Source: Bacteroidales bacterium (GTDB taxonomy: Bacteria > Bacteroidota > Bacteroidia > Bacteroidales > Bacteroidaceae). Taken from it: a DNA stretch of 45,068 nucleotides. The notes below the pieces were generated by a model. The model saw nothing but the letters and a program-made list of their open reading frames with translations, searched no databases and had not been told where the DNA came from. The stretch lies in assembly GCA_015060835.1 (NCBI GenBank), contig SUXT01000010.1, positions 1 to 45,068 of the forward strand. Reading direction: 5' to 3'. The translations under genes and the position numbers were made by a program. Below, piece after piece: positions 11,201 through 32,377 of the stretch. Numbering within the stretch: the stretch's first letter is position 1; the number at the start of each line of letters is the position of its first letter.

Positions 11201-14200
11201 TCAGTCTCGACCCCGAAAGAGTAACACATCTGATTGTCGGTGCCTACGATTATAAAGTACGCGTAGCGTATGAAGACAAAATAAACGACTTTCTGCTGGG
11301 AGAAAGCAATATCAGTTTCCAGATATCAAATATGGTACGTCTCGACGATGTATCAGTTATTGTCAAACCCAAGATGAACCCACTGCCGGCCGATGCCGAC
11401 CTCTACTTCAACAGTCCCGGAACACTCTTCGAAATAGAGCTTAAGAACAATACTCTCAACGAGTATAATGTCATTCCCAACATGATGTATCTTTTCGACG
11501 AGTTTGGTTCGTACTACGGTTCGGTATATAAAGATGACCGTTTGGAAAAACCTATAAAACTCGCCGCCAACGAAGTAAAAAAACTCACATCGCAGGATAT
11601 AAATGCCATCTGCGGCAAGCCTGACACCATAAAATGTTTCGAAGCCCGTCTCAACGGTTATGTCGAAAAAAATGTTCCCGACATAAAATCCATACTCAAT
11701 CTCGAGGCATTCAATCAATTAGAGGTAGTAGTCTATAATGTAGACTCACTGAAGAGCATTCCCGGAAATATTGAAAACCGCAAGACACGTGCAATGCTCG
11801 GAGCCGGCAAATCAGACTTCTCAGCCAAAAATATAAAATTCTCCGAAGTAGTAGTAACCGTGGCGCCTAAAGCCGGTGCCACATTCAAGCCCGATCCCGA
11901 AGAATACTTCGAAAAACCGGGTAGTTTATTCGACGTGACACTACTCAACGTCACCAACGAAGAGCAGAAAGTAAACCTGCGCCTGACCTTCAACGACCGC
12001 TATTTTATAAACAAACCCGATAGCGTAATCACACTAAAACCCGAGGAGAAACTGAAACTATCCTCCTCGCGTCTCAACAACATCTGCGGTTACGACATAT
12101 TCTCGTATAACGCACCTGTGTTCGAGTGCGACTCTATTGGAAATATCAAGAAAGAGCAACCAAGAGGAATAGATATAGAATTCAAGAAAGGCGAGAATAA
12201 AGTAACCGGTCTTGTGTGGCGCAAACTTATCGAAGACAAGGAGAATCCCGAAAACTTCAAGACAGACACCATCTCACGTTGCGACACAATTTTCCAACCC
12301 GCACTGCGCGATGTGTGGATAGGAGAGTACAGACTCACCCTTACAGATATTACCAAAATTGAAGCAAAAGACAAAGCGCAAAAAGACAGCACAAACGAAT
12401 GCTTCAAAGGAAAAGGATATGTACACACCACAATAATGGGAATTCCCGCACGTGTAACCGTAGAGTTCGACAGCATATACATAAACGAGAAACTGCAACG
12501 TGTAGTAAAGAACGGGGTACGCTCCATTACCGAAAAAAGCGCACACGTTCCATTGGATATCTTTAAGGAGGAATTTGTAAAAGAGCTGGAAGAAAGCAGC
12601 AAGGAAGAGGCTGAAGCGAAAGTCGATAAATTTCTGAAAGAGAGCAATGTGGGAGCATTCTACACTTATGTCGTAGGCAATGCCATGCAGACAATAAATA
12701 AGATAGACTCGGCTGGAATAGTAACACTGCCATTAGGTCTTACTGTGCCGCTTGACAAAGATCTTGAATGTCCTGCAACTATACAGCTTGCGAAGATGGA
12801 ATTCAATCCAACAAGCGCCAATCTCGATCTTATAGGCGAATTTGTACTTCCCGAGAACGATGCTCCCGAAAAATTGGGATACAGCGACATACTCATTTTT
12901 GCTGCACGCAAACTGAGTACCTCACCCGATAAGTTCCTACCCGAGAGTGGCTCATTGGGACTCGTCAAGGACTTCACGCTCAAAGATCCTGAGTCGGAAT
13001 TCATGTTCACCTTCAAAGCTCCAAGTAATCAAGACTTTGAAAAAGCAACCGACGGCTGTTACATAGCATGGGAAAATAATAAATTCAAGGAGTTGTGTGC
13101 CTCCATCAGCATGAATATTCCCACCGAAGAACTGATAAAGGACAATGGCAAAGATTCTATTGATCCCAAAGTACATCCCGAAATTACACTGACAGCCTAT
13201 ATTGCCGATGCCGAAGACTGGTACGCAACCGTCAAGATGGACCCCTTCCAAGTAGCCGATGCTCCCGGATTCACATTCAGTGCAACAGGAGACTCGGTAG
13301 GTATTATCTACGACCGCTCAAAGAGAAAAACCCCGACAGGAATAAAATTCCCCGAGGAGTACAACTATAAAACGCTCGGACTCTCCGCCGACCCCGGCAA
13401 GAGCGAAAAAGCATACAACGAGTGGAGAGGATTCTACTTTGAAAACCTCAGTTGCAAATTACCTCATTTTGTAGAACTTGACGACAAGGGAGATTCTCGT
13501 GTGAAATTTTCAGTCGGAAACATCATCTACGACGATTCGGGCTTCTCTATGCAAGCAAGCGTAGACAGTCTGCTCAATCGTGGCACTCCCAAATTAGGTG
13601 GTTGGCGCATCACTCTCGACAAAATCTATCTCAACGTAAAACAAGGACATTTTGGCGATGCCGGTATCAACGGTAGAGTTGAAATACCACTCCTATACAC
13701 CAACGACTCCACAAAGGCACAAATAGGCTATCTTGCCAAGATACAATCTATTGACCACGGCAACAAGAAGGGTCTGAAGATGAATTTCCGCGCTCAGCAA
13801 GTGGAGGACAGCATATATTTCGACTTTATGCTGGCGCATGTAAACTTCAACAAAGACAAGACCTATTTCAATATACAATACAACGACTCGTTGCCCGAGA
13901 AGAAAAGGACATTGGTAGAACTGTGTCTGGATGGCAAGGTTAAGATAACATGCTCCGAAAAGATTGGATTCGAACTTCCGGACATTCCATTCGAAAATAT
14001 GCGCTTTGCAAACTTCCCCAAGAACGAATCCAAAGGCAAAGATAAGGACAAAAAGTCTACTGAAGGACAAGGTGTGAGCAGCCCCGACAAGAATGTGAAC
14101 TTCCACACAGGTCGTTGGGCGTTGGCAGGTGACCCGGGAAGCGACGAAGGCGATTTCTGGGGAATGCCTTTTGTACTTGAGAATATCTCAATGAAAATTG

Positions 14201-17200
14201 GCGACGGAGCAAAACACCTTGGACTATACATAGAAGGTGGAATTGTGGTCATGGGTAACAAAAAGTTCGGCATCGGCTGTACAACAGGATTGACCATCTG
14301 GTCCGAAATTGACTGGGAAGAAATGACGGTAAAATACGACAGTGTGCAATTCAACAAATTGCATGTTGAGGGACAATATGCAGGAATGCTATCCGTCGTG
14401 GGCGACCTTAACGTCTCCGAGGAAAAAGAAAAATCGGGCTTTGATGCCGACCTTGCAGTCAAACTCAAAGGATTGTTTGACATTAAACTTGCAGGAGGAT
14501 ATTACAAGATAGAAAAGACCGAAAAAGAGTTTGCACTCGACGACGAGGACGAGAAAAAAGATAAATACTATCATGCAGGATACTTCCTTGCACACGCAGG
14601 GTTCGGCGTAGGATTACCCATGGGGCCTGTATCTTTGAAAAGCATTACCGGTGGTATATTCATAAACTATTCAGTAGCAGTGTCGGAGCTTACAGGAGCA
14701 TCGGATTACGTGAAAGCCCTCGAAGAAAATCTCAAGCCTCAATATAAATCATACGGCGGAACATTTGGCGTAGGATTAGTAATAGGCGAAGAAACATTAG
14801 TAAATGGAAATGCTAATCTTTTGTTGATGATAGACATCAACAAGAATGGTGTGCGCGTACCCGGATTTATGTTCCAAGGTGAGGTGCATGCACTATGCGC
14901 TTCGCCCAACGACGACAAAGGCATTGTAAATGCCGACGTTACCATTCTCTATGAGGACACCACAACCCCCGACCCCGACCCCAACGACAAAAATGCCGTT
15001 ACTCCCACTCCCGAAGAGAAAAAGAACGAACATAAGCTCTTCAGACTCTCTATTACTCTGGATGCAGACATTGCAGCCATGTACAAAAAAATAACAAACG
15101 AAGAGTTTCAGGTAAAGGCTCCATTGACCGACCTTCAGGAGCTTGACCAAAAGAATGCAGATGCAGAAAATCAGGGTGAAAAGAAATCTGATAAATCAGA
15201 TGCAGGAAAGGCCGAAAGCAAGGGCTACATAAAGGCAAACTGTGGTGTAAGCATAAACCTTGAACTCGAAGTAAGGAACTACCCGTCGCGAGACAAGACC
15301 TACTGGCATCTTTATATAGGACAACCCGATGAGAGCAAACGTTGCCGCATCACATTCATCGACTTTGAAGTGGGAAGAAAATCCCCTGTCGGACTATGGG
15401 CAAAACTATATGCAAATGCATACCTATGTATAGGTAACGAACTTCCCGGCAATGGACAACTTCCGCCCATTCCCGAACGCGTACAAGAGGCATTGGGAAT
15501 GAAGGGAGCCGACGGAAAAGTAGATGCCAGCCTGAAGAGTAAACTCGATAAAGCACGCGAACAGACAATGAAAGGCGGTCCTGCCGGCGACATCAACGGA
15601 GGTATAATGACCGGTGCAGCCATCGGAGCCGAAATTGGCTGCAATGCAGTGTTCTGCTATGCTGATGTAGAGGGAATGTTGGGTATGGACCTTGTACTCA
15701 AACAGTATGCCGAAGGTGTAAGATGCACCGATGGTAGCAGAGCAGGCGGAAAGAACGGATTCTATGCGTCCGGACAGGTATATGCCATGCTCAAGGGTGA
15801 GCTTGGACTTATGCTCAACCTGTGGATATTCTCGGGCAAAGTGCCGTTGGTTGACATGACATTGGGCGCATTGCTTCAAGGCGGATTCCCCAACCCCACA
15901 TGGGTTTACGGTCGTCTGCGTGCCAAAGGCGAGGTATTGGGCGGACTTATAAAATTCTCATCGTCCATTGACATGAAAGCCGGCAAGGTATGTGTACCCG
16001 AAATGGGCAATCCATTGGATGACATAAAAGTATTCGGTGATGCACAGCCGGGCAGTGAGGATATTGAAAAGGGATGGAGCGAGAAATCAATAACATCATG
16101 CTACGGCAAGTCTACCTTCACTACAAACATGAAGATAGACAAGATACTTACACTCGTAGATGAAAGTGCCACAATGGAACTGCACGGAATGGGTGGTGAG
16201 GGCAATGATGTAACCCGCAAGTATGTATTCCATCTCGACAACAACTTCGAAATGAAAGAGTACGACGATAGCGATCCCTCAAACGACGACCGCAGCGCAA
16301 TTACATCATACATCGCACATATAAACCCCACATACGATAAGGAGAACTACGAATTGCAGACAGGTTCGCTGGAGCCTAATACCCTTTACCGCATAAGATT
16401 GCGTGGAACATGTAAGGAAATTGTTAATGGCAAAGAGGTTGATCCCATATACAAGGATTCCCTTTCGAACTACAAGGAGGTGCACCGTCCCTACGAAGAT
16501 ATACGGTACATCTATTTCCGCACAGGTGATCTGAGCGATAATATCAATGACGAAGTAAAAGGTTTCCTGCCTAATAATACAAAGTTTACATGTACACTTG
16601 AAAATGCGACCCAACCATCATTCATGGAACAGCATGTCCGTTCGGACTATTGGCAAAATCCCGACCATGAATTCGTGGCAAGCGTAAAGGTGTATGATGA
16701 AAACAGAAAGATGTATGTGCTTCCCGATGCGGTACAAGGTCTGCGCAAAGGACAGACATCCAAATTCGAGAATCTCCGCGTCGTAGAGGTTGTCGAGCAA
16801 GGCATCGACGAGGATGGAAACGAATTCAAATATGCAACTGTAATGCTCGAAAAACCTCTCCCGGGTGAATTCTTCGAAAAAAACAAGAATTATCGCTTCG
16901 AAATTCAGCGCATCGACCGTGCACAGCTCGACAACTACATCAATATGGTAGAGGAGAACTACAAGAGCATCATGGCAATGACAAAAGAGGACATGAAGCA
17001 ATACGAAGAACAGCTCGATGCCATAGATGAAGCCATAGCCTCGGGTGATGCAAAGGCCGGCGACGCAAACACAAACCAAGCTATAAGAGATCTTTATAAC
17101 TACTACAAGGAGGTAAGTGCAACATACGGCGAGAATGAGGCCGAGCAACGAGTTAACGAATACAAAGAGCAGCTGAAGTCCAATACCAGCGGATTTGCCG

Positions 17201-20200
17201 AGGTCGTTTATTCACAGGAATATAAGTACAATGGTATAGAAACTTTCCACGATTATATGGCTTTGGATAGAGGAGATATCATGTGGGACGGTTTTACGGA
17301 TTGGGGTGAGAAGAGCTACTCGACACTGTATTGCAAAGTTAAAGATGTTACCATAAATGATAAAGATTTTAGATACAACAATCCATACTATGCACTTAAC
17401 TTCTGGCATTCGCATGCAGCAGTATGTTATGACAACACACCAAGCTACGATTTTTGCGATAGAGCATACAGGGAATGCTATGCCGATGGTCTTAAAGGTG
17501 GTGTAACATTTGAACCTGGGTACCGGTGGTTGCGCAACGGAATCTGCGACACCGGCAAAATGACTGATGCAGAATACGAGCAGCTATACAGCCCCAAATA
17601 CAATAAGAAATGGTACTCTTACGATGATATAAAAGGGAACTATAAATCAAATGGTTATATGGTAATTCAGGATATATTAGACGCGTTCTATTACGATGCT
17701 CATATAGCGGAAACCTTCGATAAGAAAATACGTGAAGCCTATAGCCAAAAGAAACGCGGCAAGTTCGACTTTACCACTGAAGCCGACAACGGAACCATGA
17801 TAAAGGCTTATTGGCGCACCTACGCTCAGATGGTAGACGTCGATCACGCAAGAATACCCAAATGGCAGGTAGGATTGATGTATGCAGCTGACCATCCGGG
17901 CAAATATGGACTGCGTGAAAATACATCCGGCCGTTTGGCAACATGCTCATATAAATATATGTCAGGTGAATGGCCTTTATTCGAAGCCAATGATTTCCTG
18001 AAACGTATATCGAGAGTGGCAGTAGCCATACGTTTCTGCGACGGATACAATATTGCAAAGGCAAAATCAAGTTCGGGAATAAAGTTTGGTGTACGCCCCT
18101 CTACAAGTGCAATGCGAACTGTAATAATTTCGAGCAATATAAAGAACAATGAGATAAAATCGTATAAAATAGAAAATGAAACAAAGGTACTTGTTGCCGA
18201 CGAAGCCCTGCGCTCATATCTTGTGAAGAACTACGACAAAAGCAAGGATGGCGAATTGCAACAGAATGAACTGGATGCAATAACAACACTTGAACTTGAC
18301 TTTAACAACATAAAAGTTACAAGAAGGAACAATTCGCGCAATTTTGGCAGAGGAGTTGGTGTACGCAACACATACGACACCATATACATCAAGTCACTCG
18401 ATGCTCTGAAAAATATGCCCAACCTGAAGGTTTTGCGTCTGTGCAACGGCAACAACCGTCGTCATGCCGACTTCCTAAGAAACAACACGACATTGTTGTT
18501 CAATGGCAATCCTCAGTTGCACACAGTTGTGATGGACCGCTGGTATGTAGACTCCATTGACTTCAGGTCTAACACTGCTCTGAGAACATTGAAAATTGAT
18601 ATGCGCGATTATTCGCAATCCACCCCTGACGGACGAAGCAGAATTGATAGAAACTATGTTCACAGCAAAGGTGTAAAGTCTATAGACCTTAGCCAGAATC
18701 ACTCACTTGAAATTCTGCACGTAATTGACTGTAACCTCAACAATATTGATCTTTCAAACATTGCCAATCTTCAAGAGGTCGATTTGCGCATGAATCATTT
18801 AGGCAAGATTGACCTGACCGAATCGTTCCGTCTGCAGGAAAATGATGTTAATGTCGGTTGGCAAACTTCGGCTTTGTTGGTTGGTAAGGCTGTCGGTAAT
18901 TACACCTACGGAGTTGATGTCAATGTAAGCAGATTCGGTACTTCAAAAGATTATGCGCAAAGAATAAACCAAGAGAGCAGCCCCAACTTCAAAGTGAAAT
19001 TCATTCAAGAGAAGTACGAACATAACTATTCTGCAAATATGGACGAAAGGTTGCTCAAAGAGATTATTCGACAGGCTGATGAAGCCGGCGCCAATGATTA
19101 TGTCGAATGGGCAGGAAATGTTGTTGTATTCAATGCCGATGATTGCGGAATAGAGTCTATTGAATACCTTGATATGCTGATGCCACAGTTGGAGCGTCTT
19201 TCTGTCAAGAACAACAAACTGAAGGTACTTGACTTGAGCGGATTCTCACGGCTGGAAGAGGTAAATGCCGAAAATAACAACATAAGCAAAATAAATGTAA
19301 AGAGCAAAAACAAAATCACACGTCTCTCTGTGAACAACAACGAGCTGAATTCATTGCCAATAAATCTATTGACAAGCATCGAACGCTTAGATTGTAATAG
19401 CAATAATATTGAGATACTATACGTGAATGATTGTTCGAGACTCAGTCGTCTGGATTGTTCAAACAACAACCTTACAGAGCTTGCCCTCGACAAACTTTCA
19501 AAGCTTTCCGTACTCGATTGCAGCGACAACAAATTCTCTGCGGGTACCATTACATTCCCGGTCAACGCACGATTCACAACATTTAAAGCACAAAGATGTT
19601 TGGGTGATATCAAGGAGGTAGATTTGTCTAATTCAAATACTCTGCGCACGGTCAATGTGTCGGGCAACAAGGCACTGAAATCCTTGACACTGCCCTCCGG
19701 CAATGGAGTGTTGACAAGCGTCTATGCCGCAGATTGTGCGCTCCTGACAACGAATTTCATTGAAGGCATCAACAATGGAAATTACAAAGGAATCGAGGAG
19801 ATTAATCTTTCAAATAACCCCGAATTGCCGGTAGATATAACATATTCTCCCGAGAGATGCCCGCAGTTGAAGAGACTGAACGTAACCGGTTGTGATGTAA
19901 AAAGAGTATTCCTCGGCAATAAAACCGGAAGTAAAATAACATCGTTGTGCGTTGGTGTACCTCAGCGCAAGTATGGTCAAAAGGTCGCAGTTCAAGTACT
20001 CGCAGGAAAATGGTTCGAGAGCTGGGACGAATGGAAGGATTGGCCGGAAAATATACATACTACGTATATGGTTCGGGTAAACAATAGTTCGTATCAGAAT
20101 TATATAATAGATTGGTACGACAAGAGTGTTGCTACAAATCTGGAGCAAATAACAAAATCTGACGATGCTATGCGTGCGGCAATGGGCGAAACTTTCTATA

Positions 20201-22284
20201 AATACATGAAAGATAAGTATGCACCGTCGAACCGTATATTGCATACTTACCATGTTAAGGATTTGACCGAGCTCGATTGCCACAATATGGATATTGTCGA
20301 CCTCGACGGCATTCTCAAGTACTTGCCCGCAATAAAAAATGTCAATGCATCCGGTAACCAGCTTAAGACAATTGACCTGCAGTCTATGCCGAAGGTAGAA
20401 AGTCTTGATTTGTCGGATAATCTCGAACTGGAGAAACTTGCATTTGCAAAAACACCGGCTACCGACGTACTCAATTTATCCAATTCGTTTGTAGACGATG
20501 CTATTCTGGCTGCGGCTCTCAGCGGTGCTAAAAATGGTAAACTGATTGTTGATGGTGACGTTGGTCCGGCACTGTTGAAACTTGGAGCAACTGTTCCCAA
20601 AAATGTACCTCAAAGTATATCCATAAAGAGCAGAAACCGCGAACTTTTCGTAGATAACTGCTATGCAAATACTCTTGAGTTCGGAGGCAAGAGCATCGAA
20701 TTCCGATCGGCAAGAATGAATGCCCTGCTTTACACCTGCAAGGTAGAGACCCTGCGTCTGATGAACAGAGAAGAACCTATCGAACTTATCTTTACAACTG
20801 CTGATATGGCATTGATGTGGGTATGCAAATGGGTGAACGACAACCCCAACCGCAAATTCACTATGAGAATAAAAAGCGGCGATTCCTCTGTCGATTACAA
20901 AATAAACAATCTGCTCTCCCTTGTAAATGAGCAGACGAAAACCGGTCAGTTGAAGAATTTGACTGATGACACAAAGGTGATGGCGTGCCATATGATATTG
21001 AACTATGTGCATACAGGCGAAATATCCAAAGGTGTACTCTTCAGCAAGGTTCTTACCCAATTTGGCTTGGAAGATGAGTTTGCAGCACTCGAAAAATCTT
21101 CGCCAAGCAAGGCTCAATCGGGATATAAGGTAACTCTTCTGTCTGCAGGAGCGACAAAAATAAAAGTGGTGAAAGTTCTTATGGATGTATGCGACATGGG
21201 ATTGCAAGAAGCTTACGATTTCTGCAATCAAGCACCCAATGCCGACATCTCAATGAGTGAAAAAGCCGAAGCTGAGGATGTTAAGCTGGTTCTTGAAAAT
21301 GCAGGTGCGACAGTGAAGATTACAGTCGATGAAGAGGCTATTTTCAATGATAACGGTTATGACTTTGAAGTTGTACTTACTGCCGTCGGAGGGAATAAAC
21401 ACGGTGTTGTAAATGCAATCAGAACCACCTGTTCAAAGATGCTCACAGAGGCGAATGCCATTTGCAACAATGCTCCCGCAGCAATAGATACAGTAAAGAG
21501 TTATGCCGAGGCTCTTGAAATTAAAGAGGCTGTTGAGAGTGCCGGAGGAAGCATCGGAATAAACCCTGTTGCCGAAGTTTCTGAACAAGAAAAAGCCGTG
21601 CCTAACGAAGATGGTACATACAACGTTATATTGACCTCATACGGCAGTTCTAAACTTTCTGTAATAAAGGCTGTAAGAGATTTGTTGTCAGTGGGACTGA
21701 GCGAAGCAAAGAGCATTTGCGAGTCATTGCCCTATACACTGAAGAGTGTAAATACATACGAAGAGGCAGAGAACATAAAGACTGTTATTGTCAATGCCGG
21801 AGGAACAGTGGACATTCCCAATGCTCCGGCACAGCAACAGAGCGGCAGCTGTAAGGTTGTGCTTGTCTCATACGGTGCAAAAAAACTGAATGTAATAAAC
21901 GCTCTGCGAAGCATACTCGGTCTATCATTAATTGAAGCAAAGAACCTGTGCGAAAAGGCTCCCGTTACACTAAAGAGCGAGGTTACGCAAAAAGAGGCAG
22001 CAGAAATGAAAAAAGCAATAGAAGATGCCGGAGGAACAGTGGACATTTCCAATGCTCCGGCACAGCAACAGAGCGGCAGCCGTAAGGTTGTGCTTGTCTC
22101 ATACGGTGCAAAAAAACTGAATGTAATAAACGCTCTGCGAAGCATACTCGGTCTATCATTGATTGAAGCAAAGAGCCTGTGCGAAAAGGCTCCCGTTACA
22201 CTAAAGAGCGAGGTTACGCAAAAAGAGGCAGCAGAAATGAAAAAAGCAATAGAAGATGCCGGCGGCACAGTAGAACTGCGCTGA
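8281..22284 (+). CDS. giant exported repeat protein, 4667 aa, with LRRs and five L7/L12-C-terminal-like domains
   Basis: The signal peptide ends near AFS-Q (residues about 28-31); starts at 8281 and 8299 both give one. Repeats of about 165 residues begin near 32, 364, 523, 686, 851, 1020 and 1186, each with a PLPxxxxxYFxxPGxLFxIxLxN-like core and a G-E-T/K-L-T helix end. A beta-rich core follows (about 1700-2600, WRGFYFENLSCKLP onward) with acidic, Pro-rich linkers. Then come an Ig/FN3-like part near 2680, a coiled helical stretch (about 2880-2970) and a unique domain. A canonical EF-hand loop DKSKDGELQQNE (3319-3330) leads into leucine-rich repeats to about 4080. Residues 4282-4667 are five tandem domains matching the ribosomal L7/L12 C-terminal fold by sequence. 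The head repeats and FN3-protein neighbour recall TANFOR-type giant proteins of Bacteroidetes, but I could not test that. A surface fibre or adhesin role is inference. Confidence 0.85.
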   Translation: MKQHTTMIKHKILSIFMLVGALLSAVSAFSQVTVSVVPRQNPLPAQGTIYMTDPGRFFNISLTNTNGSELLPVRIEARIEGPIENGLNVWPSGESYLAIMAARTMPTYIPLQPGQTRVLTQTDLINMFRQYDAGTEMFGGGELYDMFQGGNENGTFGLLPEGHYGIKITAKSNYTETNDPGDVLGEGICYFDICYNANPPSFNNIQYLDDLSGNSDIIENSGYYTAYFPTDNPRFSWSEPTFNYKPLTITRQFIYDFRIYQLAVNQDPNDAIQHNGTIAYEQVGLMTPYCVVPYNVVAKLKRYTNVKYVAQVTARALVADASNPNYTIIGNGGKSEPVVLLMENNGLGGTNDDDIIVDNPDREYPINVEIEPKLTELTHAMESYFTTPGELFSITLENTSSENIPVCMLLQYYKGNWGVTAAPIRQHTNEFIEIKAGEKITLSDEDVNRLAGNYDFETDVIAFKAKTGFIIGKPTTEYFTERIDTAFLRVCKYTGGKPVLRETIIGKGRAPFTVSGNVVLGEMFNVSLDTKMPILPTKAGTYFKTPSRLFTLKIKSLAKQEMRIYPHMEYLTAADAVYSGVITKERLAANKYITIKPGETKEFSAEEIDKYLGGFKEYLKTVGEGEKETLTDSTLAIFDEAGGNMVRLSILDYDKLNMLNLEKDAPTQASLMQYSMSYPVSSSVSLGDVDITITSGQQPLPANGNVYINNPGRIFNITLKNLTGRDMKLVPILTYENRVIDGDRYSYTASKSSTSPEFVLKARETKTLTQKELKQLCGDTIASRYNHSTGEKEDNFKNFNEIITTDDINHLKLTLCDADSIRAIAESEPDRLQRITVSEQAYDFYADKEVKLNDIDVTLKLKMTPMPYNTRAYFTKPEKLFDVSITNNTDEDRNIVPTATYKFNDDAFCEYLSGSYKDKEVPSIAIKSGETISLTEEQVHKFFAGKQFFKIRRDVNDKVTEREVYDVTKADKEISLDPERVTHLIVGAYDYKVRVAYEDKINDFLLGESNISFQISNMVRLDDVSVIVKPKMNPLPADADLYFNSPGTLFEIELKNNTLNEYNVIPNMMYLFDEFGSYYGSVYKDDRLEKPIKLAANEVKKLTSQDINAICGKPDTIKCFEARLNGYVEKNVPDIKSILNLEAFNQLEVVVYNVDSLKSIPGNIENRKTRAMLGAGKSDFSAKNIKFSEVVVTVAPKAGATFKPDPEEYFEKPGSLFDVTLLNVTNEEQKVNLRLTFNDRYFINKPDSVITLKPEEKLKLSSSRLNNICGYDIFSYNAPVFECDSIGNIKKEQPRGIDIEFKKGENKVTGLVWRKLIEDKENPENFKTDTISRCDTIFQPALRDVWIGEYRLTLTDITKIEAKDKAQKDSTNECFKGKGYVHTTIMGIPARVTVEFDSIYINEKLQRVVKNGVRSITEKSAHVPLDIFKEEFVKELEESSKEEAEAKVDKFLKESNVGAFYTYVVGNAMQTINKIDSAGIVTLPLGLTVPLDKDLECPATIQLAKMEFNPTSANLDLIGEFVLPENDAPEKLGYSDILIFAARKLSTSPDKFLPESGSLGLVKDFTLKDPESEFMFTFKAPSNQDFEKATDGCYIAWENNKFKELCASISMNIPTEELIKDNGKDSIDPKVHPEITLTAYIADAEDWYATVKMDPFQVADAPGFTFSATGDSVGIIYDRSKRKTPTGIKFPEEYNYKTLGLSADPGKSEKAYNEWRGFYFENLSCKLPHFVELDDKGDSRVKFSVGNIIYDDSGFSMQASVDSLLNRGTPKLGGWRITLDKIYLNVKQGHFGDAGINGRVEIPLLYTNDSTKAQIGYLAKIQSIDHGNKKGLKMNFRAQQVEDSIYFDFMLAHVNFNKDKTYFNIQYNDSLPEKKRTLVELCLDGKVKITCSEKIGFELPDIPFENMRFANFPKNESKGKDKDKKSTEGQGVSSPDKNVNFHTGRWALAGDPGSDEGDFWGMPFVLENISMKIGDGAKHLGLYIEGGIVVMGNKKFGIGCTTGLTIWSEIDWEEMTVKYDSVQFNKLHVEGQYAGMLSVVGDLNVSEEKEKSGFDADLAVKLKGLFDIKLAGGYYKIEKTEKEFALDDEDEKKDKYYHAGYFLAHAGFGVGLPMGPVSLKSITGGIFINYSVAVSELTGASDYVKALEENLKPQYKSYGGTFGVGLVIGEETLVNGNANLLLMIDINKNGVRVPGFMFQGEVHALCASPNDDKGIVNADVTILYEDTTTPDPDPNDKNAVTPTPEEKKNEHKLFRLSITLDADIAAMYKKITNEEFQVKAPLTDLQELDQKNADAENQGEKKSDKSDAGKAESKGYIKANCGVSINLELEVRNYPSRDKTYWHLYIGQPDESKRCRITFIDFEVGRKSPVGLWAKLYANAYLCIGNELPGNGQLPPIPERVQEALGMKGADGKVDASLKSKLDKAREQTMKGGPAGDINGGIMTGAAIGAEIGCNAVFCYADVEGMLGMDLVLKQYAEGVRCTDGSRAGGKNGFYASGQVYAMLKGELGLMLNLWIFSGKVPLVDMTLGALLQGGFPNPTWVYGRLRAKGEVLGGLIKFSSSIDMKAGKVCVPEMGNPLDDIKVFGDAQPGSEDIEKGWSEKSITSCYGKSTFTTNMKIDKILTLVDESATMELHGMGGEGNDVTRKYVFHLDNNFEMKEYDDSDPSNDDRSAITSYIAHINPTYDKENYELQTGSLEPNTLYRIRLRGTCKEIVNGKEVDPIYKDSLSNYKEVHRPYEDIRYIYFRTGDLSDNINDEVKGFLPNNTKFTCTLENATQPSFMEQHVRSDYWQNPDHEFVASVKVYDENRKMYVLPDAVQGLRKGQTSKFENLRVVEVVEQGIDEDGNEFKYATVMLEKPLPGEFFEKNKNYRFEIQRIDRAQLDNYINMVEENYKSIMAMTKEDMKQYEEQLDAIDEAIASGDAKAGDANTNQAIRDLYNYYKEVSATYGENEAEQRVNEYKEQLKSNTSGFAEVVYSQEYKYNGIETFHDYMALDRGDIMWDGFTDWGEKSYSTLYCKVKDVTINDKDFRYNNPYYALNFWHSHAAVCYDNTPSYDFCDRAYRECYADGLKGGVTFEPGYRWLRNGICDTGKMTDAEYEQLYSPKYNKKWYSYDDIKGNYKSNGYMVIQDILDAFYYDAHIAETFDKKIREAYSQKKRGKFDFTTEADNGTMIKAYWRTYAQMVDVDHARIPKWQVGLMYAADHPGKYGLRENTSGRLATCSYKYMSGEWPLFEANDFLKRISRVAVAIRFCDGYNIAKAKSSSGIKFGVRPSTSAMRTVIISSNIKNNEIKSYKIENETKVLVADEALRSYLVKNYDKSKDGELQQNELDAITTLELDFNNIKVTRRNNSRNFGRGVGVRNTYDTIYIKSLDALKNMPNLKVLRLCNGNNRRHADFLRNNTTLLFNGNPQLHTVVMDRWYVDSIDFRSNTALRTLKIDMRDYSQSTPDGRSRIDRNYVHSKGVKSIDLSQNHSLEILHVIDCNLNNIDLSNIANLQEVDLRMNHLGKIDLTESFRLQENDVNVGWQTSALLVGKAVGNYTYGVDVNVSRFGTSKDYAQRINQESSPNFKVKFIQEKYEHNYSANMDERLLKEIIRQADEAGANDYVEWAGNVVVFNADDCGIESIEYLDMLMPQLERLSVKNNKLKVLDLSGFSRLEEVNAENNNISKINVKSKNKITRLSVNNNELNSLPINLLTSIERLDCNSNNIEILYVNDCSRLSRLDCSNNNLTELALDKLSKLSVLDCSDNKFSAGTITFPVNARFTTFKAQRCLGDIKEVDLSNSNTLRTVNVSGNKALKSLTLPSGNGVLTSVYAADCALLTTNFIEGINNGNYKGIEEINLSNNPELPVDITYSPERCPQLKRLNVTGCDVKRVFLGNKTGSKITSLCVGVPQRKYGQKVAVQVLAGKWFESWDEWKDWPENIHTTYMVRVNNSSYQNYIIDWYDKSVATNLEQITKSDDAMRAAMGETFYKYMKDKYAPSNRILHTYHVKDLTELDCHNMDIVDLDGILKYLPAIKNVNASGNQLKTIDLQSMPKVESLDLSDNLELEKLAFAKTPATDVLNLSNSFVDDAILAAALSGAKNGKLIVDGDVGPALLKLGATVPKNVPQSISIKSRNRELFVDNCYANTLEFGGKSIEFRSARMNALLYTCKVETLRLMNREEPIELIFTTADMALMWVCKWVNDNPNRKFTMRIKSGDSSVDYKINNLLSLVNEQTKTGQLKNLTDDTKVMACHMILNYVHTGEISKGVLFSKVLTQFGLEDEFAALEKSSPSKAQSGYKVTLLSAGATKIKVVKVLMDVCDMGLQEAYDFCNQAPNADISMSEKAEAEDVKLVLENAGATVKITVDEEAIFNDNGYDFEVVLTAVGGNKHGVVNAIRTTCSKMLTEANAICNNAPAAIDTVKSYAEALEIKEAVESAGGSIGINPVAEVSEQEKAVPNEDGTYNVILTSYGSSKLSVIKAVRDLLSVGLSEAKSICESLPYTLKSVNTYEEAENIKTVIVNAGGTVDIPNAPAQQQSGSCKVVLVSYGAKKLNVINALRSILGLSLIEAKNLCEKAPVTLKSEVTQKEAAEMKKAIEDAGGTVDISNAPAQQQSGSRKVVLVSYGAKKLNVINALRSILGLSLIEAKSLCEKAPVTLKSEVTQKEAAEMKKAIEDAGGTVELR
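8371..12110 (+). repeat. seven ~165-residue repeats in the giant protein
   Basis: Repeats start near nt 8374, 9370, 9847, 10336, 10831, 11338 and 11836. From the second on the spacing is 159-169 residues. The first-to-second distance (332 residues) is about two units and includes an extra FN3-like domain (DNPRFSWSEP...YDFRIYQL). Shared core: P-L/M-P, then Y-F/I-x-x-P-G-x-L/I-F-x-I/V-x-L-x-N, then a charged E-T-x-x-L-T/S-x-x-x-(I/V/L) helix ending in C/A-G. Units are well diverged in DNA, so the array is old. Confidence 0.75.
18235..20500 (+). repeat. EF-hand loop plus leucine-rich repeats in the giant protein
   Basis: Residues 3319-3330 form a 12-residue EF-hand loop with D1, S3, D5, G6, L8 and E12 in place. 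It is followed by LRR units of the form LxxLDLSxNxxL/LDCSxNNL, for example near 18684, 19212, 19390, 19447 and 20400. An insert of about 100 residues (SPNFKVKFIQEKYEHNYS...) splits them. This EF-hand-then-LRR arrangement is common in secreted Bacteroidetes LRR proteins and suggests a calcium-stabilised recognition surface. Confidence 0.7.
21124..22281 (+). repeat. five tandem L7/L12 C-terminal-domain-like repeats
   Basis: Units begin at nt 21124, 21358, 21619, 21850 and 22081 (residues 4282, 4360, 4447, 4524 and 4601), each about 67 residues plus a linker. Each has the pattern V-x-L-x-(S/A)-x-G-(A/S)-x-K-(L/I)-x-V-(I/V)-(K/N)-x-(L/V)-R, then G-L-(S/Q)-(L/E)-x-EA-K-x-(L/I)-C-E-x-(A/L)-P, ending A-G-G-T-V-(D/E)-(I/L). 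This tracks the E. coli L7/L12 C-terminal domain almost without gaps. Residues equivalent to L7/L12 K65, I69, R73, L80 and K84 are kept in units 3-5; units 1 and 2 are more diverged. Confidence 0.85.
21793..22254 (+). repeat. 231-bp nearly identical tandem duplication
   Basis: Nucleotides 21793-22023 and 22024-22254 align without gaps and differ at only four positions by my reading: P/S and C/R in the linker and domain start, one silent change in a Leu-Ile stretch, and one N/S. The unit is 77 codons and includes the NAPAQQQSGS linker. It is a recent in-frame duplication of the fourth L7/L12-like unit. Confidence 0.9.
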
Positions 22285-22329: not shown

Positions 22330-24627
22330 ATGAGAGGATTTTCGAAAATAGTAAAAATGGTCGTTGCAGCTCTTGTCATTACAAGTGTTTTACCTGTGCA
22401 TGCGGCTGAGACAGATAGAAAGATTTTAAACAAGGATGCAAGAAGCACCAACACTGTCCCGGATGACACGACAAAAGTAAATGTTGTTGACATCAGCAAG
22501 ATGAGCCGCGAAGAGTATGAGCGCTATCTGCTAACAGCCAAGATAGACACTACACGCAAAGACACAATGATGGTAGCCTTTTCGGTGCATGTGCTTGCGC
22601 GTCCCAAAGGCGACAGGGTGCTCCTGCGTTGGGCGCCGGATGAATTTGCCCCATGGTATCTTGCCAACAAATATGGATACAATCTGTTGCGTATAAATGA
22701 AGAAAGTGTAATCGATACACTGAAAAAGGGAATGCTTCCTATGCCGCTCGAAACAATGAAGCAACATTTTGCACCCACCGATTCGCTTGCGGGTGCAATG
22801 GCACAGATGCTTTATGGAAAAGGCACAGGACTCAATAATGCAATAGGCAACGATGGCGCTGAGGGCATCATGCAGGTGTACGAAGAGCAGCAGACGCGCT
22901 TCGCCTATGCAATGCTTCTTGCCGAAATACGCCCTGACCTTGCAGAGGCTATGGCGCTGATGTATATTGACAGCACAGCAAGAAAAGGTAAGGAGTATAC
23001 ATATTATGTAACCACCAATATCCCCAGGAAAGAGCTTACTATGGTATATCAGCCTGCTACGGTAAAGAATGTCAAGACAGATCCTCCCCATTTCGAACCG
23101 GTAATAACTGACTCTATCGGTACCGACGGATACTCTACCCGCATCTTTTGGCCCATGAACCCCATGTATAGTTCCTATGACATAGAGTGTCGTTTCAACG
23201 GAGGCGAGTGGAAGAAGCTGAACAAAAACCGTTTCATGACACTTATTACATACGAGGACGAATCTGTTGCACAGAACATATATGAAAATGCCAATTTGGT
23301 TCCGGGAACATACGAATACCGCATTTGCGGCTATGATTCGTTTGGCGAAAAGAGCAATTACAGCAAAATACATAAGGTGGAAATGCCAGACATACTGCCA
23401 CCTACCGCGCCTGTAATAAAAAAGTTCTATGTTGAACGTCCCACGGAAAATACCATCCTTGCCGACATCATCTGGGAAAAAAACAATATCGAGCCCGACT
23501 TCAAAGGTTACAATATATATTACTATAATCCGCAGTTGGACTCCATTTGGGTGAAGCTGAACGACAAACTGTTAGCGCCACAAGATACAACATTCCGTTG
23601 CGAGGTAACATATCTTGGAACCGGACGTGTGACGGTGGTTGCCCTTGACACTCTTGACAACGCATCGCCTTCTATGCCGCAAGAACTGTTCATTGCAGAC
23701 TTTACTCCCCCCTCTCCTCCCAAAGGATTGGAGTATGTAATGTCGCCTACAGGAAGCGTTCTTATCAAATGGGAAAAAAGTCCCGACCCCGATGTTGCAG
23801 GATACAACCTCTATTATGCAAACGACACCACACACACTTTCCTGCAAAAGGCAGGACGCATGACGCGTAATACGATGATATTTGACACCTTGAAGGTAAC
23901 AGGAGTAGCACAACGTTTCACATACTACCGTGTGAAGGCATTCGACTATTCAGGCAACGAGTCGAAATTTTCGGATATCCTCACAGTGAAGCGCAAGAAC
24001 TACGATGCACCCCGTCCTTGTCGCATTGACTCCACATGGATGGATGAGGAGAGAGTATACATGACGTGGTTCCCATCTTCTGAATTTGATGTCGATAAGT
24101 TCTATATATACCGTCGTATGCATGGCGATGAATTCAATTCACTGATAGGTGTATATACAAAAGATTCCATAAGAAACGGACGTCTGCATATATCGGACGC
24201 CCCCGTCCCCAACCGTCAGAAACGCTATTATTACCACATAGAGACAATAAACGAGACAGGTATCACTTCAGAACCATCGGCAGAAACCTCTTTTCTGTTC
24301 AAAGGAAGTACAGTCTATCCGCTTGCAATAAAGATCGGTGCAGGCTATCGTGCCGACGACGACAAAGTGTATATCGGCTGGGATATATCGGGACTCACAC
24401 AGGAAATGATAGACGACGGAGCATACATCTGTATATACAAGATGTGGAGCGACGATGATATTTTCAGACACATAGAGTCATTGAGTATCGACAAGCGCAA
24501 CACCATTGACCACCACATGAAGCCCGGTGACGAAGCCGAATATCGTGTGCGTGTGCGTTCGAAAAATGGGAAAATAAGTCCCTATTCAAACACTGTAAAG
24601 GTTACAGTACCCGGCAAAGAGAAGTAA
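22330..24627 (+). CDS. exported multi-domain fibronectin type III protein, 765 aa
   Basis: The signal peptide is MRGFSKIVKMVVAALVITSV...VHA. After a disordered start, FN3-like modules appear near residue 85 (VHVLARPKGDRVLLRWAPDE), 357 (PPTAPVIKKFYVERP), 460 (PPSPPKGLEYVMSPTGSVLI), 560 (APRPCRID...VYMTWFPSSEFDV) and 668 (KIGAGYRADDDKVYIGWD). An inserted helical segment lies around 160-215 (MAQMLYGKGTGLNNA...AYAMLLAEIRPDLAEAM). No catalytic motif or sorting tail is visible. It begins 45 nt after the giant gene and is probably co-transcribed with it. FN3 chains of this type usually serve as spacers or binding arms, so a role as a structural partner of the giant protein is likely but inferred. 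Confidence 0.8.
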   Translation: MRGFSKIVKMVVAALVITSVLPVHAAETDRKILNKDARSTNTVPDDTTKVNVVDISKMSREEYERYLLTAKIDTTRKDTMMVAFSVHVLARPKGDRVLLRWAPDEFAPWYLANKYGYNLLRINEESVIDTLKKGMLPMPLETMKQHFAPTDSLAGAMAQMLYGKGTGLNNAIGNDGAEGIMQVYEEQQTRFAYAMLLAEIRPDLAEAMALMYIDSTARKGKEYTYYVTTNIPRKELTMVYQPATVKNVKTDPPHFEPVITDSIGTDGYSTRIFWPMNPMYSSYDIECRFNGGEWKKLNKNRFMTLITYEDESVAQNIYENANLVPGTYEYRICGYDSFGEKSNYSKIHKVEMPDILPPTAPVIKKFYVERPTENTILADIIWEKNNIEPDFKGYNIYYYNPQLDSIWVKLNDKLLAPQDTTFRCEVTYLGTGRVTVVALDTLDNASPSMPQELFIADFTPPSPPKGLEYVMSPTGSVLIKWEKSPDPDVAGYNLYYANDTTHTFLQKAGRMTRNTMIFDTLKVTGVAQRFTYYRVKAFDYSGNESKFSDILTVKRKNYDAPRPCRIDSTWMDEERVYMTWFPSSEFDVDKFYIYRRMHGDEFNSLIGVYTKDSIRNGRLHISDAPVPNRQKRYYYHIETINETGITSEPSAETSFLFKGSTVYPLAIKIGAGYRADDDKVYIGWDISGLTQEMIDDGAYICIYKMWSDDDIFRHIESLSIDKRNTIDHHMKPGDEAEYRVRVRSKNGKISPYSNTVKVTVPGKEK

Positions 24628-24687: not shown

Positions 24688-25389
24688 ATGGCAATGAAAC
24701 TTACAAGAGATATATTATTGCTAATACTGACAGCAGCATTTTGCTCCTGTGGAGAATTATTCATCTTCGATACGGACAATCCGAACATCGACGGCTTGAG
24801 CATTTCGCATCACGAAATAGACCTGCATGTGGGCGACTCGATATATTTTGATACATATCTGACTCCTGACACACTGCCTGCGTCATTTTATTGGTTCGTA
24901 CAGGGCGACGAAGAGGCAGTGGAACTTGCAGGCAGACGACTTTATGCCATCAATCCCGGACGGGCTGTAGTTACGGTAGAGGCACGGACGACCAACATCG
25001 ACAACACCACGAACACAGTTTCGGACAGTTGCATTGTAAATGTTTTTAAATGGGACGGATGCAGTCCCGATGAATTTCTATATGAAACAGTAGTATATTC
25101 GTCGTTGGTTGTTGATGGCGTATCGCTGACTGAATCACTTGGAAATACGCGTCTGGTAGCAGTGGTTGACGGTGAAATACGTGCCGAGGCTGTGATGCGT
25201 TCGGCATACGGCATTCCATATCTCGAAATGCGCATAAAGGCTCTGTGGCCGGGCGAGCAGGCGGCAATATTATGCTATCATCCGTCTACATATCAGCTTT
25301 TCGAACTTGGTTCCATCAACCTCACCGGTGAAACATACGGCACGCTGTCCAATCTGGTAAAATACAGATGCAACAGCCGCAACAATTAG
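24688..25389 (+). CDS. lipoprotein with Ig-like and AAF/VVDGE-type domain, 233 aa
   Basis: The N-terminus is a lipoprotein signal ending LTAAFCSC, with acylation probably at one of the two Cys (about residue 19 or 21). Residues about 35-115 form a Big2-like Ig module (GLSISHHEIDLHVGDSIYFD ... PGRAVVTVEART). Residues about 140-225 (NTRLVAVVDGEIRAEA...AAILCYHPSTYQLFELG) share the layout of the C-terminal AAFVGEECRG domain of the 1308-residue protein at the start of the locus. The start may be 24688 or the second Met at 24694, which gives a cleaner signal. Likely an outer-membrane-anchored partner in the surface complex. Confidence 0.7.
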   Translation: MAMKLTRDILLLILTAAFCSCGELFIFDTDNPNIDGLSISHHEIDLHVGDSIYFDTYLTPDTLPASFYWFVQGDEEAVELAGRRLYAINPGRAVVTVEARTTNIDNTTNTVSDSCIVNVFKWDGCSPDEFLYETVVYSSLVVDGVSLTESLGNTRLVAVVDGEIRAEAVMRSAYGIPYLEMRIKALWPGEQAAILCYHPSTYQLFELGSINLTGETYGTLSNLVKYRCNSRNN

Positions 25390-25410
25390 AAACAGATTAA
25401 ATATAAGGAT

Positions 25411-25905
25411 ATGAAAAAGTTTGTTTTTCTTCTTATTGGTTTATTTATATATACAGCAGCATCTGCCGATGATAAACTTAAACAATACGATTGTGTACAA
25501 GTGTTGCTGACAGACGGACGAATTTTTGACATCGAGATTGATGCAGAATCGTCGATATACTCCTACACAAAGGATTCTGTTCAGTATGTAGAGGTCATAG
25601 GCAAACGCGAAGAATATATTTTTGAGCGCACAGAAATGCGTTCGGTAAAATTTATAGAGGCGGTTTTTACCTCTATCGACAACCTGCCAATTGTGGATGA
25701 CTCCAATCCTTTGCGATATGCCGACGGAGCTTTGATGTTTCACCGTTCATTGAATGGAGCAACGTTGTATATATTCGATGCCGCGGGCAAACAGATGCTC
25801 TCGGCCGTTGTATGCTCCGATTCTTATGTCAGTCTGAAGCATTTTGCCAAAGGCATATATGTGGCACAAGTTAATGGTTACAGAATTAAAGTGGTAGTAC
25901 GATGA
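25411..25905 (+). CDS. small exported protein with type IX-like C-terminal tail, 164 aa
   Basis: The signal peptide is MKKFVFLLIGLFIYTAASA-D. A short N-terminal beta domain (YDCVQVLLTDGRIFDIEIDA ... MRSVKFIE) is followed by a C-terminal module (LRYADGALMFHRS ... LYIFDAAGKQM ... FAKGIYVAQVNGYRIKVVVR). The latter has the YDxxGKxV...GxYxVxVxG...K pattern of type IX secretion sorting domains. The stop overlaps the next start as ATGA at 25902-25905, so translation is probably coupled. Gut Bacteroides keep such tails even without a full type IX system, so the export route is uncertain. Confidence 0.75.
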   Translation: MKKFVFLLIGLFIYTAASADDKLKQYDCVQVLLTDGRIFDIEIDAESSIYSYTKDSVQYVEVIGKREEYIFERTEMRSVKFIEAVFTSIDNLPIVDDSNPLRYADGALMFHRSLNGATLYIFDAAGKQMLSAVVCSDSYVSLKHFAKGIYVAQVNGYRIKVVVR

Positions 25906-28900
25906 AAAGATTCATGCAACATATTATCATTGCATCGATGGCTATCATGATGATTGTTCTCGATGCATCCGCACAGGTTGATATGCAACGTTCTTTCGGT
26001 GTTGTATGCAAAGACAATAATGACTATATGCTTCCCGAAGGCGGCAACTGGAAAATTACATTCTCAACGACAGACTCTTTGGGCAATAATTACAGGAAGC
26101 CGGTAACAATGGTATTCAACGGCTCGTTGCTTAACGACAGCACAAACATCACTATAGAGACGATTGACAGCCTTATGTTCGATGTGCCGGAACTCCGTTA
26201 TGAGGCAGGGGTCTACGAAATTGAAGAAGAACAGTTCCGGTATATTGTTGAGAGCGACACATTCAAGACCGTATATTTCAGAATAGACTGCATCACCAAA
26301 ATACAGTTGCCCAAGGTGGGACAGAAGGTTATCTGTAATATATACCGAGGGAAATTGCCATACGGTTTTATGGGCGAGGTCGCATCCATGAAAGCCGATT
26401 ATGGCAAAGGATGGATAGAGATGAAATGCAATCCCGTAGCCCTCGAGGATGTCTATTCTGTCTTCTATGGCTGCGGTGTCTCGCACGCAAATGGTTCGGA
26501 TGAGGTTCCCGACTCCATCATCGAAATGCGCAAGGTCAGAAAGCGCGCCTTGACACGCACAATAACCAGAGATGCGATAATCACAGACACCATAGTAAAG
26601 AACATATACACTTTCGAAAAGAAAATCGCCATCACCGATGAAGGAAAAATCAAAGAGGATGAAGATGAAGGTGCGATAGTTATTGCTGCTGAAGGCACTG
26701 CTGTGCTCGGCACATACTGTTCCGTGATAATAAACAATGAAGCCGGAATAAAGAAAGTCAAGTGCACGGTAGACATGACTGTTGGCGGTCTGTTGACAGT
26801 CGATGCCAATGCATCGCTCGAACCCGATGAAGACGAGAAGACATCGCACGATTTTCTCAACATCCCCATTCCGGTGGTAATATTACCTGGATTAAGTGTC
26901 AATGTAGATATAGGAGCGACATGGAACTACAAGTTGGAAGCAAGTTTGCATGCCGAGTCGTGGTTTAATATCTCGCGTACGGCAGGAATAAGCATAGACG
27001 GCAGCAATCGCGATGTAATCTGGACCACAGAAAAAGAGGACAATTCAAAGAAACCATTCAAGTTGGAGAACGGCAATTCGGCAGAAATAACCCTTCAAGG
27101 AGAATTGTTCTTGGCACTACACTGCAAGGTTGGCATAGGTCTCGGAGGTGAAGGTCTTGTATTCCAGCTTAAGTTCGGTACCGGTCCCAAATTTTCGGCA
27201 TCACTACATTACAAGACCGGGCAGAAGGCAAGCACCCTGAATGACGACCCCGACTGGCTTAATGAACGAATAGAGATATACAAAAGCCTCAACGACGGTA
27301 CATTCTTCAAGATAGAATGGGGATTCCTTTTCGATCTTGAATTCTCGGTGGCTAAAGACCAATGGTCGTTTGCCGTGAGCGAATGGCTCGAAAAACTGGG
27401 TATAGACAATGTTCTCTACGTTGATATGTACAGCTTGTTGGCCACCCCATCTACGGATGAGATTAAAAAACGTATGCACTACAACGACTATTGTTACCGA
27501 GGCATACTTCCCAATACCAACAACCTGATATTCTTCTACGATGCAGGAATGATGTTTATAGATGCATCGCCCGGTGCAACCGTCGATGGTCATCCCGATT
27601 ATGTTGTCGAGGGCATTGGCAAATTTGAAGCCATAAAGCCTAATGAAGTCAGTTTCGACCTTAACCTTGAAGATAAGGCGCATATTAAAGGTCGCAGACT
27701 TCATGCCTACCCGATACTCTATAATCCGTTCTTTACGGAGTATGCAGTAATAGGCATTGTGGACACATTGTATATGAACTATAAAGTCAAAATGACGGAT
27801 TCGAAGAAGGATTATGACACATGTACTCTGAAAGCCGAATTTGATGCTGACGCATTGCAGAATCCCAATATAACTGAAGGCGGCTTCATTATATATGACC
27901 CTGAAAACGGAGAAGAGGCGGGACGGGAAATTCTATTCAGCGGTATTTTACCATCCGAGAACAAGCTCGAAACTGTAATGCGCCGTGGAAAATATGTCTT
28001 TGAAGAGTACAACGTAAAAGCCTATCTTTACGACTCGGTAAACGATGAATATTCGTACAGCCCCACATGGCCCTGCGGATTCCTCAGTTATTACACCCCT
28101 GAGACATTGGCACCTACCGAAATAACTGCTGTGGGCGCAACGCTCAACGGTGCAGTGCATCAGGCAGTCGTAGACGCTGAAAACTTCGACCACATAACAA
28201 ACAAGTTCAGTGTGGGATTCACATACTATCCCAACGGCAGCACCGCCATGGATTATCTGAACAATGTCAGAGGCGCAAGTTATAATTGGGACCTTTCAGG
28301 CAAGCTCACTCCGGATACAGAATACCGTTTCCGCACCGTACTTCGCGACAATGAAACCAACAAGCAGTACAATGGTGCCGAGCTCGTTTTTAAGACCAAG
28401 CCCGTATTCTATAACTTCAAGCCATATGTAAATAACGACAATGTCCTCTTGGCAGTAATGGCTGATAAAGGCTTTGTGGACACCGGCAACAAGAGTAAAT
28501 ACTACTTTGTAATTTCCGAAGAGCGCGACAAATGGGAGGACGACAAGGACGTAAGGGTAGTTTACGACGAAGAAATGAACGATGAACTTGACAACAAGGA
28601 TGATAGTCGCGTGCTTGTCCGGATTGTGAAAGTAGGCAACAATGACTTTGGACGCGACGACGATGAGCAGGACTATGACATTGGCATAATGTCCGAAAAA
28701 GGATGGGAGCCGGGTCGCACATATTATGCTAAAGCTGTGTATGACGATGGAAAAGGCCGTCGCTATGAAACAGACATTGTCTCGTTCAAGACACCGGCAC
28801 CGATAGACAACCTTAAGGAGACTCCCGATGCAGAATTTGCTACACTTTTTGCCGATGTCCTATCAACATACGCAGACGGTGCTGCAAAGATAATACTGCG

Positions 28901-29975: not shown

Positions 29976-30361
29976 TAATATCTATGCAGAAAACATATTT
30001 TATAATGCTGATGTTGGCGGCTCTTGTGCCGCTGACATTTGTCTCGTGTGAACTGAACGGTCCATTGTCAATATACGAAATTGTGGTAAACGACAACATT
30101 AACTACCTACCGCCAGAAACCCGAAACGAGATAGCCGAACTAAATCAGGAATTTGCGACAAATGCAAGAGAAAAGGAATATGCACTTACCCGGTTCGACA
30201 AGATTTGCAATGAATTGCAGGCATATTACGACGAAAACCGTGGGAAACTTATTTGGGACGACCTGAATTTTGACATATCACTTTACAATACATCCAATTA
30301 CCGAGGAACAGGTGAAGGCCTACTTGTCAAAAGCCGGATAATTACATACAGAACGGAATAA
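29972..30361 (+). CDS. small lipoprotein, 129 aa
   Basis: A lipoprotein signal (MQKTYFIMLMLAALVPLTFVSC when started at the second Met, 29984) has Cys at the end of LTFVSC. The mature part has a helical region (PPETRNEIAELNQEFATNAREKEYALTRFDKICNELQAYYDE) and a short beta tail (WDDLNFDISLYNTSNY). It overlaps the previous stop by ATGA and is the last gene before the terminator. I do not recognise a family. It is probably a periplasmic or surface accessory of the operon. Confidence 0.75.
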   Translation: MIISMQKTYFIMLMLAALVPLTFVSCELNGPLSIYEIVVNDNINYLPPETRNEIAELNQEFATNAREKEYALTRFDKICNELQAYYDENRGKLIWDDLNFDISLYNTSNYRGTGEGLLVKSRIITYRTE

Positions 30362-31489: not shown

Positions 31490-32377
31490 TCACTCCTCCT
31501 GCTCGTAGTAGTACGAGTAATCAATACCCTTCATAAAGGTTTCACGGTCGTTGATTTTGTCGGTCAAAGCAGACTGCAAAAGTCGCTTGATATCCGACGA
31601 GTCGGCAACACTCTTTTGCATCGCATTCAAGTAGTCGTTCTTGTCAATCTTACTCCAATCAACGCATTTCTGCAACTGCTTTTTGAGAATCAGATCGAGC
31701 CATATACGGGTCGCACGACCATTGCCCTCACGGAACGGGTGAGCGATGTTCATCTCGACATATTTATCGGCAATCTCCTCAAAATTCGTTTCGGGCATTT
31801 GCTCGATGGTTGCAAGTGCCTGCGGAAGAAACTGCGCCATTGCAAACTGAAAACCACCCTTTGCGATATTCACAGTGCGAATTTGACCGGCAAAGTCATA
31901 CAAACCACCAAATAGGTAGGCGTGAATCTGCTGCAAGCCTTTGACCGTGCCGACCTCGATATTGTCGATTAGGCTGCTCTCAAAGAGGGCATACGCCTTC
32001 GACTTGCTCTTGCCGTCAATAGTCTCGTCGCTATTGGTAAACCACTCGACAAAACGCATCGCACGGGCGTTGGGAAAACTCTTTGCGAGGAGCAAAACAC
32101 CATTGTAGTCGAGGACATCAGCGAGTCGTCGCTTGCCATCGGGCGCAAGAAGTCTCAACTGGTTAGTGCCACTAACCACTTCACTTTTCTCGCCTTTAAG
32201 CTTTGTTTTGAGATATTTCCAGTAGTTGCGGTTTTTCTGGTAGTCGTCTTGGTCGTTCAGCACTCCTACGATATCAAGCACAGAGAACCACCATTTGGAT
32301 TTTTCCTCATCCCAAACAGCTCGCACCTCACGGTCATTATAAAATCGAATGGATATTTTTGTCATAAAATTTAGCAC
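31490..32377 (-). CDS. Fic-domain protein with N-terminal Bro-N-like domain, 295 aa
   Basis: Residues about 6-115 resemble the Bro-N/phage antirepressor-type domain ([31 protein letters not shown], then [11 protein letters not shown] and RRLADVLD). Residues about 130-270 form a Fic domain: [20 protein letters not shown] ahead of a complete catalytic motif H213-P-F-R-E-G-N-G-R221. Fic proteins transfer AMP or other groups from nucleotides to target hydroxyls, often as toxins. All motif residues are present, so activity is plausible. No separate antitoxin is seen next to it. The start may be 32377 or Met5 at 32365. It lies 23 nt after the type IIG enzyme on the same strand, so it is probably the last gene of that defence operon. 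Confidence 0.88.

Follow-up and report, generated by a model that had tools for sequence, protein, structure and literature searches.

The window considered here is a stretch of 45,068 nucleotides from a Bacteroidales bacterium of the family Bacteroidaceae (contig SUXT01000010.1 of assembly GCA_015060835.1). It contains a giant gene whose product, a protein that reads as exported, ends in a tandem array of five L7/L12 C-terminal domains (L12 units hereafter). Ribosomal protein domains are usually regarded as tied to translation. Here one of them, by which ribosomes normally catch translation factors, recurs as an evolving repeat within an apparently exported giant, with one to five copies in every carrier found in the genus. 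We infer the export of the giant from a Sec signal peptide read by eye, which is clear to that reading in this protein and in two orthologues; its surface exposure is presumed. The nine complete orthologues in the genus span 4788-4978 codons, all with unbroken frames. The layout of the gene is as follows.

8281..22284, + strand: giant protein, reads as exported, 4667 amino acids; single open frame, with orthologues in the genus
8281..8373, + strand: signal peptide of the giant, read by eye, cleavage near AFS/Q
8281..12270, + strand: TANFOR-like N-terminal region by hhalign, best at residues 1-190, with weaker stretches up to residue 1330
15610..16080, + strand: core (residues ~2444-2600) common to relatives of mostly ~1500 codons in the order
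19180..19740, + strand: leucine-rich repeats, residues ~3634-3820 (PF12799, E 8.5e-18)
20167..21078, + strand: leucine-rich module of ~300 amino acids, residues 3963-4266; one copy here, two or three in orthologues
21127..21321, + strand: L12 unit 1 (PF00542, 56.5 bits)
21364..21561, + strand: L12 unit 2 (PF00542, 44 bits)
21619..21816, + strand: L12 unit 3 (PF00542, 67.8 bits), basic at positions 65, 70, 73 and 84
21853..22047, + strand: L12 unit 4 (PF00542, 73 bits)
22084..22278, + strand: L12 unit 5 (PF00542, 73.5 bits), a near copy of unit 4 including the linker

A profile search with PF00542 confirmed that the C-terminal 386 residues of the giant (4282-4667) are five true L7/L12 C-terminal domains, all over the curated cut-off (44-73.5 bits against 25.9). 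The preliminary description of this DNA, made by inspection, was thus right about their fold, number and position, as well as about the equivalents of K65, R73 and K84 being kept in the last unit and about a host protein that reads as exported. Structure prediction for the array gave five well-folded beads joined by loose linkers, with the 1CTF fold and with unit 5 superposing on PDB 1CTF at 0.7 Å. The units share 33-45% identity with the rplL product of the same genome, which still encodes it, and units 4 and 5 are identical at 187 of 195 bases. The likeness to ribosomal bL12 lies in the C-terminal domain itself, whereas the giant's units have no N-terminal dimerisation domain, are arrayed in tandem within a protein read as exported, and have lost many charges that are invariant on the ribosome. 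The best stretch of the giant matching TIGR00855 spans positions 52-124 of the 125 in that model, and the summed score of 214.4 exceeds the cut-off of 84.4 because five stretches add up, an annotation trap in which the summed units pass NCBI's ribosomal L7/L12 model. The giant is ruled out as bL12, having neither the N-terminal dimerisation domain nor a single C-terminal domain.

Within the genus, 44 genomes (own included) were sampled, the giant being counted at full score and absence meaning no match at E <= 1e-10. It is present in 13 of these, own included, while two carry a 2474-codon relative at ~225 bits and 29 have no match. All 13 giants terminate in L12 units: five in the source giant, four in L051, L055, L059 and L109, three in L048, L049, L056, L057 and L108, and one in L052, L053 and L110 (L108, L109 and L110 are C-terminal contig fragments from genomes with the core on a separate contig). 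Relatives outside this clade (L111, L112 and L113) have different C-termini, from which L12 units are absent. The leucine-rich module of ~300 residues precedes the array, and over the 12 countable tails (L109 is cut off) one copy accompanies five units, two copies three or four, and three copies one; L048, L049 and L057 have an additional weak partial match to the module (11-12 bits). This inverse relation is a pattern, given here as counts owing to the few lineages involved, and since leucine-rich modules rise as L12 units fall, the tail looks modular. In a tree of the units, the first units of nine tails cluster with support of 98/94, and unit 3 of L055 and L109 clusters with unit 2 of the others, some inner units having changed places. 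The ratio of nonsynonymous to synonymous substitution (dN/dS) of the array was computed for 15 close pairs in three sets, with three pairs for the core, and lies below 1 in all 15, at 0.11-0.17 in the six pairs of one orthologue set.

The source giant is not alone in having the domain off the ribosome, nor in having it in tandem. More than one PF00542 match was found in 12 of 151 genomes of the family and in 9 of 198 of the order (own included in each), the extra match being below the cut-off in four and two of these, respectively, and in one genome (G204) the extra match falls in a second, rplL-sized frame. Besides the giants, 17 non-ribosomal carriers were inspected, with signals judged by eye. 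Four read as exported, each with a single unit: L042 and L043 combine it with Cleaved_Adhesin (L043 also with a dockerin), L039 combines it with Cthe_2159 and a tail reading as type IX secretion system (T9SS)-like, and L040 has a dockerin below the cut-off. Among the carriers inspected, tandem units on a protein reading as exported occur only in the giants.

The partners of the domain in proteins without a signal are of several kinds. For example, a 360-amino-acid protein from the same genus (L105:2397-3476, G547:C95) joins TIR, the L12 C-terminal domain and SEC-C without a signal, and resembles a defence-type effector that carries a translation-linked module. Another genome of the genus has three adjacent genes with one L12 unit each (L104:2463-9149, G571:C33), whose starts read as zinc ribbons; the second gene matches 15 Sel1 repeats, and in the third such repeats are recognised by eye. 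One carrier at L106 has a similar start, and a Pfam match for these zinc-ribbon starts was below the cut-off in one of three scanned. At L125:528-2279 (G284:C1), EF-Tu domain 2 (E 9.4e-10) and a caspase (E 3.9e-38) are found with a weak L12 unit (E 3.4e-5); with two translation-linked domains beside a protease, this protein is perhaps a sensor of translation state. The carrier at L041 has no signal by eye, and those at L044, L107, L122 and L124 look membrane-bound, L044 and L107 being below the L12 cut-off. Tandem units without a signal by eye are found in other families of the order, with three at L121:101-1171 (the first two near copies of each other), two at L123:1813-2370 and two or three at L122:1510-3054. 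The occurrence of single units in both exported and signal-less proteins marks the L12 C-terminal domain as a mobile module in the order, used in exported proteins as well as in TIR, caspase and Sel1 proteins. In the available text of PMC12419801, a ClpS-ribosomal L7/L12 domain is named in the cytoplasmic region of non-ribosomal proteins with a single transmembrane segment; the same domain class is used off the ribosome there, but those domains are cytoplasmic and the giant's are in tandem on a protein reading as exported.

The divergent units offer a natural series for asking which residues bind translation factors. Positions 65, 70, 73 and 84, which we take to be the basic factor-binding site of L12, were compared together with the rest of the domain between 39 array units and 31 rplL sequences, and retention means were taken over 14 clusters at 80% identity. 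The array keeps its core and turn residues (P91 and A103 in 39/39, G62 and G77 in 36/39), and many charges near-invariant in rplL are lost, with K59 in none of the 39 units, K81 in four and K95 in three. Position 65 is basic in 35/39, positions 70 and 73 in 26/39 each and position 84 in 15/39, the last being N in 22/39. Only unit 3 of the source giant is basic at all four, whereas its units 2, 4 and 5 carry N at position 70. Outside the site, positions 102, 107 and 111 are retained at 1.00, 0.90 and 0.79. The available text of PMC6753160 places the factor site of L12 on a conserved, positively charged surface of helices 4 and 5.

With moderate confidence, we read the array as a module for structure or binding, repeated at the end of an exported tail that is itself modular. 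In this scenario, L7/L12 C-terminal domains would have left the ribosome and been added, probably once, to the C-terminal end of a giant exported protein of TANFOR-like type in an ancestor of part of the genus, and would then have multiplied and been lost within the gene. The units would be compact beads with a structural or binding role, placed at the tip of the tail, which would most likely hold a partner outside the cytoplasm, presumably other than a translation factor, such as a further envelope protein encoded in the cluster or a ligand on host or plant material or on another cell; unit copy number could then set reach and avidity. The identity and position of the domain, its occurrence in all giants found, the changing copy number and dN/dS below 1 are established and support this reading. 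So do the loose linkers of the model, the keeping of core and turn residues beside the loss of charges, the single units in other proteins that read as exported, and the gene's place in a run where every product starts with a signal by eye. A module outside the cytoplasm, one of the uses suggested in the preliminary description, fits best because every giant ends in one to five units and because their number runs counter to that of the leucine-rich modules.

Several observations weigh against this reading. The core, at dN/dS 0.04-0.07 in its three pairs, is more tightly constrained than the array, on which selection relaxes in the 4-unit set (0.23-0.51, six pairs) and in the three pairs of the 1-unit set (0.13, 0.20 and 0.68, the last from a pair with a synonymous divergence, dS, of 0.04); the array units are thus constrained, though less than the core. 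In addition, 13 of the 17 other non-ribosomal carriers are without a signal by eye, and the TIR, caspase and EF-Tu-domain-2 partners of some of them point to translation-linked roles of the module generally. Furthermore, mean retention is 0.68 at the four factor-site positions compared with 0.43 over all 22 positions at which 90% or more of the rplL sequences carry a charge, although this excess is only slightly above chance (permutation p 0.049, Mann-Whitney p 0.044).

The rival that survives best, though we consider it somewhat unlikely, is that the units are stable beads whose sole role is to fix how long or how flexible the tail is, with no partner of their own. The trade of one to five units against leucine-rich modules, the loose linkers of the predicted model and the drift of many exposed charges would all be expected of such a pure spacer. 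A spacer would not need the somewhat better retention of the helix-4 basic residues over other charges, nor the clustering of the first units of nine tails, although the movement of some inner units tempers the latter point.

It is less probable still that the tail binds translational GTPases, namely EF-Tu displayed or released outside cells, by the helix 4/5 surface that L12 uses on the ribosome. The prevalence of basic residues at positions 65, 70 and 73, the excess retention over the four sites and the fully basic unit 3 of the source giant argue for it. However, position 84 is basic in a minority of units, asparagine occupies position 70 in three of the five source units, the complete set occurs once in 39, positions 102, 107 and 111 are kept as well as or better than most site positions, the p value is marginal, and the text of PMC6753160 specifies the site only as far as the surface of helices 4 and 5. 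On the EF-Tu binding proposed in the preliminary description, the retention data point neither way.

The N-terminus of the giant brings in a further reading. TIGR02542, the curated TANFOR model, matches nothing in the genome at E <= 10 and nothing in the first 500 amino acids of the giant at E <= 1. A set of 12 TANFOR sequences was assembled (E 3.4e-11 or better, 11 of them below the curated TIGR02542 cut-off), and hhalign of seven N-termini against it gave 98.9% (E 3.5e-17), against nine of the sequences 98.8% (E 7.9e-17), without L116 98.7%, with three giants of the genus alone 97.0% (E 1.1e-10), and against the single TANFOR sequence above the curated cut-off 95.7%. In a control scan, made with three giants, in which a 190-residue stretch slid along the giant (48 positions), residues 1-190 were best at 97% against a median of 0.2%; the other stretches above 40% all lie between residues 96 and 1330, and the best past residue 1425 reached 1.7%. 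Moreover, a single frame of 1888 codons in another genome (G268:C42:133034-137224) matches TIGR02542 and also contains the giant's core, bridging the two families; the two matches agree in contig, in frame length and in reading phase. By profile comparison, the giant's N-terminus is related to the TANFOR domain, though divergent from it. TANFOR proteins are described in the available text of PMC7073777 as polymorphic toxins of Bacteroidetes with variable C-terminal toxins, fn3 domains and T9SS-linked neighbours. The giant resembles them in its divergent N-terminus, large size and signal peptide by eye, in relatives with varying C-termini, and in fn3 and T9SS-tailed neighbours, but differs in having no curated TANFOR model match, toxin domain or immunity gene found. 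At the limits used, searches of Pfam, NCBIfam and PADLOC matched no toxin model in the giant; the leucine-rich matches that NCBIfam returned for two effector families were weak and far below the cut-offs. No immunity gene was found downstream, where the next gene encodes an fn3 protein without a PADLOC match. With no C-terminal toxin model and no downstream immunity gene, the giant is not placed in the TANFOR polymorphic toxin class.

These results bear on whether the array, standing at the toxin position of TANFOR proteins, might be a payload, delivered into a rival cell and serving there as a decoy for translation factors. The TANFOR-like N-terminus, the bridging frame, the variable C-terminal toxins of TANFOR proteins (PMC7073777) and the other C-termini outside the clade would suit it, yet the missing curated match, toxin model and immunity-like gene speak against it, as does the absence within the genus of any swap for other payloads, and we regard it as quite improbable. 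No better placed is a wider speculation, in which a TANFOR-class exported protein would have the stalk-domain array as its working end, its L12 heads binding translational GTPases outside cells or, once delivered, diverting them from a rival's ribosomes. In that case a bacterium would be making a mimic of the ribosomal stalk to use beyond its own cytoplasm. That the array is a functionless relic of a domain captured by chance is very improbable, since unstable copy number and one dN/dS value as high as 0.68 stand against units kept in every giant found and over the Pfam cut-off in all five cases here, ratios below 1 throughout and nine unbroken complete orthologues.

The gene of the giant lies within a same-strand run of eight genes (2259 to 30361), all of whose products start with a signal read by eye.

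2259..6185, + strand: immunoglobulin-like protein, signal by eye; its T9SS type A tail is weak (TIGR04183, E 0.0012, below the cut-off)
6421..8271, + strand: barrel-like protein (by eye) of 616 amino acids without a Pfam match, upstream of the giant
22330..24627, + strand: fn3 protein of 765 amino acids (PF00041, 25.7 bits, cut-off 25) with no immunity model matched, downstream of the giant
24688..30361, + strand: four more genes of the run, signals by eye, two read as lipoproteins

The TIGR04183 match of the first of these proteins rises above the cut-off when it is scored with its frame neighbours. The genome encodes SprA and 20 T9SS tail matches (TIGR04183) at E <= 0.1. The giant itself has no match to this C-terminal sorting domain and is not counted as T9SS type A cargo, and its passage across the outer membrane is putative. 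The leucine-rich repeats of the giant (residues 3634-3820) also match internalin_J at 60.8 bits, far below its cut-off of 1700. Of 393 genomes of the order, 37 (own included) match the core, for the most part in frames of ~1500 codons. Beside the ten core loci inspected, some of them cut by contig ends, a barrel homologue was found in five cases and an fn3 homologue in seven. The 12 named core-bearing loci come from metagenome-assembled genomes (11 Bacteroidaceae and one Bacteroidales), 11 of which have the gut of goat, sheep, roe deer, water deer or yak as their source.

Elsewhere in the window, at 31490-35682 on the - strand, a gene for a Fic/DOC protein, with a BRO-N match below the cut-off, adjoins one for an Eco57I-like restriction-methylase of 1093 amino acids, and the GC content there is lower, at 0.32-0.35.

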